This document shows, one piece after another, positions 39,763 to 43,330 of a DNA stretch of 64,000 nucleotides (its first letter is position 1; each line of letters begins with the position of its first letter). Location of the stretch: contig CAITOF010000006.1 in NCBI GenBank assembly GCA_903893945.1, forward strand, positions 1 to 64,000. The letters are read 5' to 3'. The translations under genes and the position numbers were made by a program. The notes below the pieces were generated by a model. It was given only the letters and a program-made list of their open reading frames with translations. It had not been told where the DNA came from and searched no databases. Source of the DNA: an uncultured Oxalobacteraceae bacterium. Its GTDB lineage: Bacteria; Pseudomonadota; Gammaproteobacteria; Burkholderiales; Burkholderiaceae_D.

Positions 39763-39791
39763 TTTACGCTAAACATGAATTTTGCTATAGT
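39763..39791 (+). promoter_or_regulatory. sigma-70 promoter of tRNA-Val
   Basis: TTTACG (39763-39768), a 17-bp spacer and TATAGT (39786-39791) precede the tRNA by 13 bp. A GC-rich discriminator (CTCCCGTC) follows the -10 box, typical of stringently controlled stable-RNA promoters. Confidence 0.75.
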
Positions 39792-39804: not shown

Positions 39805-39881
39805 GGGCGGTTAGTTCAGCTGGTTAGAATACTTGGTCGACATCCAAGGGGTCGGGGATTCGAATTCCTCACCGCCCACCA
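39805..39881 (+). tRNA. tRNA-Val (anticodon GAC)
   Basis: A complete 77-nt cloverleaf. The acceptor stem is GGGCGGT/ACCGCCC. The D-arm is TTCAGCTGGTTAGAA. The anticodon stem CTTGG/CCAAG encloses loop TCGACAT with anticodon GAC. The T-arm holds GATTCGAATTC. CCA is encoded at 39879-39881. It lies between the DUF4239 gene and thrS. Confidence 0.97.
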
Positions 39882-39932
39882 ATCATTATTATTGACACAC
39901 TTCTTTTTAAGAGCGAGAAAGGCATCCTGGTT

Positions 39933-39974
39933 ATGACACCGCGAACTACCACCTTACCTGGTATGCGACGCTAG
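39933..39974 (+). CDS. putative threonine leader peptide of thrS
   Basis: A 13-codon ORF absent from the track: [13 protein letters not shown] then TAG. Four of 13 residues are Thr (ACA, ACT, ACC, ACC), three of them consecutive. AAAGG lies about 10 nt upstream. It lies after tRNA-Val and 28 nt before an intrinsic terminator that precedes thrS. The layout matches ribosome-mediated attenuation: low Thr-tRNA would stall the ribosome and change RNA folding before the terminator. The peptide and terminator are visible; the mechanism is inferred. Confidence 0.55.
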
Positions 39975-40002
39975 TCGGGGATCTTTTTCGTTTGTCAATC
40001 TG

Positions 40003-40032
40003 AAAAAGCGCGGCTGGTCCGCGTTTTTTTTT
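40003..40032 (+). terminator. intrinsic terminator/attenuator before thrS
   Basis: CGCGG-CTGGT-CCGCG (40009-40023) is preceded by AAAAA and followed by nine T. A competing 7-bp pairing exists between CTTTTTC (39983-39989) and GAAAAAG (40002-40008), which overlaps the A-tract flank. The left arm CGCGG can also pair with CCGCG (39939-39943) inside the leader peptide ORF. Confidence 0.8.
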
Positions 40033-40086
40033 ACCTTTTTTATATTGTTTCCTTTTTTGCAGCCTTTATCATTTTTGGAGAACATG

Positions 40087-41994
40087 ATGATTTCAGTCCG
40101 ATTACCCGATGGTTCAGAGCGTCAGTTTGATGCGCCCCTGACTGTCGCACAGATCGCCGCCAGTATCGGGGCAGGTCTTGCCAAGGCCGCATTGGCCGGC
40201 AAGGTAAATGGTCAACTGGTGGATACCTCGCACCTGATCAGCACGGACGTGGAACTGTCGATCATCACGGATAAAGATCCCGAGGGCCTCGACGTGATCC
40301 GCCATTCGACAGCGCATTTGCTGGCCTATGCCGTGAAGCAGCTTTACCCTGACGCACAGGTAACCATAGGTCCGGTCATCGACAACGGTTTTTATTATGA
40401 TTTTTCCTATAAACGCCCGTTTACGCCGGATGATCTGGTGCTGATCGAAAAGAAAATGGTCGAGCTGGCCAGAAATGACGAGCCGGTGACGCGCAGCGTC
40501 CTGCCACGCAATGAAGCAGTGAGCTATTTCAGATCGATAGGTGAAGCCTATAAAGCGGAAATCATTGAATCGATTCCGGCCGATCAGGAGGTTTCGCTGT
40601 ACAGCGAGGGCAACTTTACGGACCTGTGTCGCGGACCCCACGTGCCATCCACCGGCAAGCTGAAGGTATTCAAACTCATGAAGTTGGCCGGCGCTTATTG
40701 GCGCGGCGATTCCAGCAATGAAATGCTGCAGCGTATTTATGGTACCGCCTGGGTTAAAAAAGAAGATCAGGAGGCCTACCTGTTCATGCTGGAAGAAGCG
40801 GAAAAACGCGACCATCGTAAATTGGGCAAGGCGCTGGACCTGTTTCATATGCAGGAAGAGGCGCCCGGCCTGATTTTCTGGCATGCCAAAGGGTGGACCA
40901 TCTGGCAGGAAGTTGAACAGTACATGCGTCAGGTCTATCGGGATTGCGGTTATCAGGAAGTAAAAACGCCGCAGATTCTGGATCGCAGTCTGTGGGAAAA
41001 AACCGGTCATTGGGAGAACTATCGTGACAACATGTTTGTCACCGAGTCGGAAAGCCGCAATTACGCGCTGAAACCCATGAATTGTCCGGGCCATATCCAG
41101 ATATTCAATACCGGCCTGCGCAGCTATCGTGAATTGCCGCTGCGCTTCGGTGAGTTCGGTCAGTGTCACCGCAATGAAACCTCCGGTGCATTGCACGGCA
41201 TTATGCGGGTGCGCGGCTTTACGCAGGACGACGGCCACATATTCTGCACGGAAGAACAGATCGCCCAGGAAGTGATGGTGTTTCATCCGCAGGCGATGAA
41301 AGTCTATTCGGACTTCGGCTTCAAAAATATCGATATTAAAATAGCAACCCGCCCTGAAAATCGTATCGGCACCGAAGAAGCCTGGGATCGTGCCGAGGAA
41401 GCGTTGCGCTCGGCGCTGCGAGCCTGCGGGCTGACCTGGCACGAATTGCCGGGTGAAGGGGCGTTTTATGGCCCTAAAATAGAATACCACCTGAAAGACA
41501 GTCTGGGACGTTCCTGGCAGGTCGGCACGTTTCAGATCGACCCCTCCATGCCCAGCCGCCTGGGAGCCGAATATGTCGCGGAAGATAATTCGCGGAAAGT
41601 TCCAATGATGCTGCATCGGGCCATTGTTGGCTCAATGGAAAGATTTATTGGTATTTTGATAGAAAATTATGCCGGGACCTTGCCGTTATGGTTGTCACCT
41701 GTACAAATTGCCGTTACTAATATTTCCGCCGCTCAGGCTGATTATGCCCAATCCGTGGCCGAAAACCTAAAAAAACAAGGGTTTAGAGTTAACCTCGATT
41801 TGCGTAATGAGAAAATAACCTATAAAATACGGGATCATTCTGTTCAGAAAATCCCTTATATAATTGTCATCGGTGATAAAGAGCGGGATGCGAATACAGT
41901 GGCCGTGCGTACGCGAGGCAACCTTGATCTGGGCGTGATGCCCATTTCGGCTTTAGTTGAGCGACTGAACCAGGAAATCGCAACTAAAGTGTGA
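40087..41994 (+). CDS. thrS: threonyl-tRNA synthetase
   Basis: A 635-residue class II synthetase. An N-terminal TGS domain is followed by the editing domain, which has [14 protein letters not shown] (HxxxH) near 76-90. The catalytic core has motif 1 around residue 300. The zinc-binding Cys is in KPMNCPGH, motif 2 is [21 protein letters not shown], and motif 3 lies near 515-530. An anticodon-binding domain ends the protein. I prefer ATG 40087 over adjacent ATG 40084 because GGAG is then 6 nt away. It charges tRNA-Thr. It is first of the thrS-infC-rpmI-rplT run and is preceded by a Thr-rich leader ORF and terminator. Confidence 0.98.
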
Positions 41995-42970: not shown

Positions 42971-43330
42971 ATGCCTAGAGTGAAACGTGGGGTTACAGCT
43001 CGTGCCCGCCATAAGAAAGTTCTCGATTTAGCCAAGGGTTACCGTGGTCGTCGCAGCAAAGTGTATCGTATCGCCAAGCAAGCAGTTATGCGCGCGGGTC
43101 AGTACGCCTACCGCGATCGCCGTAACAAGAAGCGCGTGTTCCGCGCACTGTGGATCACCCGTATCAATGCCGCATCCCGCTCGCACGGCATGACGTACAG
43201 TGTCTTCATGAATGGTCTTAAAAAGGCTGCTATCGGTCTGGATCGCAAGGTCCTCGCTGATATGGCTGTGATGGACAAGCCGGCGTTCGCCGCAATTGTC
43301 AATCAGGTCAAGGCTACCCTGGCTGTGTAA
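42971..43330 (+). CDS. rplT: 50S ribosomal protein L20
   Basis: 119 residues, basic, opening [20 protein letters not shown] with [30 protein letters not shown], the 23S-binding N-terminal extension of bL20. AAGGAG lies 6 nt before the ATG. It binds 23S rRNA early in assembly and is the usual repressor of its own operon. A strong terminator follows. Confidence 0.99.

Follow-up and report, generated by a model that had tools for sequence, protein, structure and literature searches.

The window, meaning the whole 64,000-nt stretch of DNA analysed here, carries on its forward strand a tRNA-Val gene, a short ORF rich in Thr codons, an intrinsic terminator and thrS. Both this order and the coordinates given in the initial annotation are borne out by the sequence and by ARAGORN. 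The features are as follows.

39763..39791, forward strand: candidate promoter site 5′ of tRNA-Val (consensus matched at 9 of 12 positions, spacer of 17 nt, TG preceding the second hexamer)
39805..39881, forward strand: tRNA-Val(GAC) (ARAGORN; Rfam RF00005)
39910..39932, forward strand: outer part of segment 1, AGAGCGAGAAAGGCAUCCUGGUU, including the SD-like GAGAAAGG (39915-39922); near-invariant among relatives
39933..39974, forward strand: leader ORF of 13 codons plus the stop codon TAG, its frame recurring in 110 distinct homologous ORFs
39936..39938, forward strand: additional Thr codon, ACA, codon 2 (read from the ORF)
39945..39953, forward strand: Thr run ACT ACC ACC, codons 5-7 (read from the ORF)
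39970..39989, forward strand: segment 2, GCUAGUCG (39970-39977) plus CUUUUUC (39983-39989), predicted to pair with segment 1 or 3 according to ribosome position
40002..40018, forward strand: segment 3, terminator left arm and loop by folding, GAAAAAG CGCGG CUGGU, also written GAAAAAGCGCGGCUGGU; its CGGCUGGU (40011-40018) pairs with GCUAGUCG
40019..40032, forward strand: segment 4, terminator right arm CCGCG and T tract; stem conserved
40002..40030, forward strand: intrinsic terminator stem, starting 27 nt after the end of the ORF, with a T tract to 40032
40084..41994, forward strand: thrS, threonyl-tRNA synthetase, 636 aa, with a TGS domain (40093-40269) over the Pfam cut-off

The leader ORF, 51 nt from tRNA-Val, reads ATG ACA CCG CGA ACT ACC ACC TTA CCT GGT ATG CGA CGC TAG and thus contains, within 39933-39974, the three consecutive Thr codons and the fourth nearby that had been reported for it; the SD-like GAGAAAGG ends 10 nt 5′ of its ATG. 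The promoter-like site before tRNA-Val is weak, with about 0.7 such sites expected by chance. It is the sole site of this kind between 39600 and 40300, so tRNA-Val may be co-transcribed with the thrS leader. The closest named relatives of the encoded ThrS belong to the Oxalobacteraceae (82% identity to ThrS of Undibacterium fentianense), and thrS is followed in its gene row by pheS and pheT.

We consider it very likely that this leader controls thrS by ribosome-mediated transcription attenuation in response to Thr-tRNA charging, and its control probably extends to the genes behind thrS. The basis for this reading is the sequence itself, its conservation, selection on Thr codons, mutually exclusive pairings and the match between pairing partners within each genome. 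A short, putatively translated ORF with an SD-like element, its frame kept in 110 distinct homologues, carries selected codons for the relevant amino acid; an intrinsic terminator stands between this ORF and thrS; and folding and partner-swap tests predict an antiterminator that excludes the terminator and depends on ribosome position. We infer translation of the leader ORF, ribosome stalling and a change in read-through in the cell. In the proposed mechanism, RNA polymerase would transcribe the leader while a ribosome initiates on MTPRTTT. When Thr-tRNA is scarce, the ribosome would stall at codons 5-7 and cover segment 1, leaving segment 2 to pair with segment 3, which would prevent terminator formation and allow thrS transcription. 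When Thr-tRNA is ample, the ribosome would reach the stop codon and mask segment 2, or would leave the RNA so that segment 2 pairs with segment 1; in either case the terminator would form.

Attenuation of thrS had been proposed in the initial annotation, and the conservation of frame, Thr codons and terminator, with synonymous drift, supports it. Three Thr codons in succession occur in 13 of the window's 2438 short ORFs, counting nested starts; this sequence by itself shows no rarity, and the run stands above chance because it is conserved in relatives. Aligned leaders keep the Thr codons while these drift synonymously, the opposite of homologues from which the Thr run or the ORF is missing. 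For codon statistics, homologous ORFs were picked by the GGTT preceding the ATG and not by Thr content. Among the 110 distinct ORFs, the share with Thr is 100% at codon 5, 73% at codon 6, 69% at codon 7 and 34% at codon 8, and all four Thr codons (ACC, ACG, ACA, ACT) occur at codon 6, where the entropy of the three positions is 0.75, 0.97 and 1.86 bits. From codon 6 onward these ORFs hold 222 Thr codons, compared with 62.6 ± 7.2 in shuffles, and the count is 222 of 795 in frame versus 16 of 795 and 75 of 795 in the other two frames. Along the thrS tree of 60 loci, 20 synonymous and 15 non-synonymous changes fell at Thr codons 5-7, where about one third would be expected to be synonymous without selection; this is modest evidence, as the events are few.

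The start of the leader is conserved in a different manner. The core GGUUAUGACACCGCGAAC is nearly invariant in nucleotides, with codons 2-5 and the preceding GGUU nearly frozen even at synonymous sites, which is beyond what Thr sensing alone requires; pairing of the core with segment 2 accounts for part of this freezing, and in some lineages only. Such invariance would be expected if the leader were instead a structured RNA bound by, for example, ThrRS, a ribosomal protein or a metabolite, with the ORF incidental or merely opening the structure. We regard that explanation as decidedly unlikely: Thr codons past the core are conserved as codons with the third position free, Rfam gives no family match at E≤1, and Bordetella, Achromobacter and others have lost the core but kept RTT(T) in the ORF (loci L075, L078, L172, L234 and L235 among them). 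It is extremely improbable that MTPRT(T)T acts through nascent-chain or context-dependent arrest, with stalling that answers a signal other than Thr-tRNA. M-T-P-R-T is indeed conserved far beyond the Thr run, even where Thr codons are few, but several lineages have lost MTP while keeping R-T-T, Thr codons are over-represented and drift synonymously, and a chain of five residues barely enters the ribosome exit tunnel. Some lineages keep the MTPRT core with two Thr residues only, as in MTPRTFLLKR (L237) and MTPRTCKASEPRR. An attenuator with two inputs, Thr-codon stalling and a second signal read by the core GGUUAUGACACCGCGAAC, would explain both the synonymous freezing and the retention of the core with two Thr codons; we think it unlikely. 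Possible second inputs are ThrRS or uncharged tRNA binding to the core RNA, or arrest on M-T-P-R-T.

A ribosome-mediated attenuator further calls for alternative RNA structures, and the stop-codon region supplies them. As in a classical attenuator there are four segments, the first of which takes in the ribosome-binding site, the start codon and the Thr codons. In folding of ribosome-free RNA, the outer part of segment 1 (39910..39932) pairs with sequence past the stop codon. The stretch GCUAGUCG...CUUUUUC has two possible partners, the leader start (1:2) and CGGCUGGU with GAAAAAG (2:3, the antiterminator), such that 1:2 excludes 2:3 and 2:3 excludes the terminator (3:4). The complementarity between CTTTTTC (39983-39989) and GAAAAAG (40002-40008) had already been pointed out, together with the remark that the visible pairings did not give a complete classical switch; the former holds, and the switch is completed here by GCUAGUCG:CGGCUGGU as the alternative to pairing of GCUAGUCG with the leader start. 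A second pairing that had been suggested, between CCGCG in the ORF (39939-39943) and the left arm of the terminator, is real as complementarity but probably has no role in the mechanism. It was rejected on the grounds that the ORF segment stays unchanged where the stem changes (L093, L103, L105, L115, L121). The terminator stem is conserved in relatives, with a compensatory change in a few sequences.

Effects of ribosome position were modelled by masked folding, which removes the ribosome footprint and assumes that this extends 16 nt ahead of the P site. For the window RNA, the predicted probability of the terminator is 1.00 when ribosome-free, drops to 0.14 when a ribosome occupies the Thr run and is again 1.00 when it stands at the stop codon; the stalled state has 13.7 expected 2:3 pairs. 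The comparison with and without a stalled ribosome that had been recommended for this leader comes out as attenuation predicts. Over 143 leaders, the mean number of expected 2:3 pairs before segment 4 is made was 3.5 in free RNA, 13.8 in the stalled state and 6.1 at the stop codon. The terminator probability fell below 0.5 in 29% of real stalled RNAs versus 4% of controls with a shuffled spacer, and stalled-state 2:3 pairs numbered 14.2 versus 10.8 in the same comparison. In many lineages the terminator stays the more stable predicted fold despite a stalled ribosome, so antitermination there would be kinetic.

RNAalifold on a MAFFT alignment recovered the terminator and a small hairpin only, because the variable spacer misaligns, and the arms were therefore tested by comparing pairing energies of each genome's own partners with those of partners swapped between genomes. 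Own partners were the more stable for 2:3 (-16.2 versus -14.3 kcal/mol) and for 1:2 (-23.0 versus -20.7 kcal/mol), with 0 of 5000 permutations reaching the observed value in either case, for 145 leaders that included related sequences. When each lineage contributed a single representative (n=43), P was 0.0005 for 2:3 and <0.0001 for 1:2. Matched lineage-specific forms include GUCGAGG:CCUCGAC in Pandoraea, UCGAGG:CCUCGA in Burkholderia, the 2:3 pairing GUUCGCGC:GCGCGGAC in Acidovorax, GCUAGCUG:CGGUUAGC in L176, GCUAGACGCG:CGCGCCUGGU in Massilia and the 1:2 pairing CGCACGAA:UUCGUGCG in Achromobacter. Contiguous 1:2 pairs, when counted directly, were modestly in excess (3.60 versus 3.16). In a 30-sequence alignment of the close family, 2:3 columns were paired in 92.5% of cells, and their covariation was no higher than in shuffles because the region is too conserved. 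Three leaders (L173, L194, L195) have AGC (Ser) at codon 6, and their ORF sequence ACTAGC pairs perfectly with GCTAGT of the stop region, an apparent trade-off of a Thr codon against a stronger 1:2 helix.

The proximity of tRNA-Val, 51 nt 5′ of the ORF, and the position of the sole promoter-like site before the tRNA would also suit a terminator that merely ends the tRNA-Val transcript, with a thrS promoter further downstream and an ORF that is noise. Noise, however, would not yield a conserved frame, conserved Thr codons and an antiterminator, and the leader is kept in L092, L096, L098, L099 and L100, loci whose 585-700 nt of upstream sequence contain no tRNA according to ARAGORN. Simple tRNA termination is therefore exceedingly unlikely.

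Of 210 upstream regions of thrS, nearly all from Burkholderiales and drawn from named genomes and from genomes of the window's family, 161 have a homologous leader; the leaderless regions belong largely to groups further removed or to lineages in which the leader has apparently been lost. A covariance model built from the leader was searched in the window's genome and in 399 genomes of the order. The window's own genome gave one strong match, at thrS (8.8e-27), the next having a value of 0.09. The model matched 106 of the 399 genomes, from many families, at E≤0.01; roughly 55 of these fell below 1e-5, and weak matches are unreliable. All 20 matches checked in other families of the order lie before thrS, and further leaders among them include MSFRTTTTGTLYLG, MQLNRTTTTS and MLRTTTSVVG.

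Several relatives depart from this arrangement. The leader ORF is lost in members of the family (L183, L184, L186, L187, L198, L200 and L203-L207), in which a terminator-like hairpin mostly remains; several of these genomes are small (about 2-2.5 Mb). In L086, from a genome of the window's genus (G042), the leader ORF and antiterminator are absent and AAGAGCGAGAAAG abuts CGCGGCTGGTCCGCG and the T tract, reflecting either misassembly or natural deletion of the stretch between two A-rich repeats; a real deletion would predict unregulated termination or a new promoter. L012 and L117 have an insertion of about 80 nt, with hairpins of its own, between the leader stop codon and the terminator.

Ribosome-mediated attenuation is an established principle. 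The E. coli pheST attenuator, with its pheM leader, senses Phe and controls pheST; the window leader shares with it attenuation of a synthetase operon but has Thr codons, although pheS and pheT follow thrS. The enterobacterial thrABC leader thrL, a regulator of biosynthesis with both Thr and Ile codons, likewise has Thr codons in a short ORF before a terminator. In the Rfam search, neither the threonine operon leader (E≤1) nor the T-box covariance model matched at the window leader, and the only match other than tRNA was a sub-threshold DapZ at 43329. In Streptomyces lividans, a thrL has been proposed upstream of thrS and read as attenuation (PMC8079986). It resembles the window leader as a Thr-codon leader peptide directly before thrS, but it is MKRVRPFLETTPGFVPAR, leaderless and unrelated in sequence, and its authors found no clear terminator (PMC8079986). 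The text of a survey devoted to premature terminators makes no mention of thrS (PMC2965389). Our literature search, with most subscription journals outside its reach, found no description of a thrS attenuator in Betaproteobacteria. If the reading is correct, many genomes contain a regulatory RNA that annotation has missed, and the leader offers an in vivo reporter for Thr-tRNA charging.

In E. coli, thrS is subject to a textbook case of translational autoregulation, in which ThrRS binds an operator that mimics tRNA-Thr. The same gene is regulated there, but at the level of translation and through ThrRS binding. The operator hairpin of E. coli K-12, GUGAUCUUUCGUGUGGGUCACCACUG, has relatives before thrS in other genomes. 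A simple CACCACTG pattern, rather than a full model, placed a box near the thrS start in 19 of the 40 genomes that belong to the class but not to Burkholderiales. It did so in none of the 211 members of the thrS set, which accordingly yielded no E. coli-type operator in the form of a CACCACTG hairpin by the thrS RBS. Should the attenuator be confirmed, Burkholderiales would regulate thrS at the same place as E. coli by another principle, transcription attenuation by a stalled ribosome, and attenuator and E. coli-type operator would largely exclude each other between lineages. Many of the loci L242-L279, outside Burkholderiales, have a conserved hairpin like GTGATCTCTCGTANNGATCACCACTG just 5′ of the thrS RBS, as in E. 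coli K-12. Three other loci outside Burkholderiales, L080, L081 (Rehaibacterium) and L269, encode tiny Thr-rich ORFs (MSTTPI, MKTTTLR and MSTTTAQR) ahead of a terminator-like hairpin and then thrS, possibly representing an independent or distant Thr attenuator, Xanthomonadales included.
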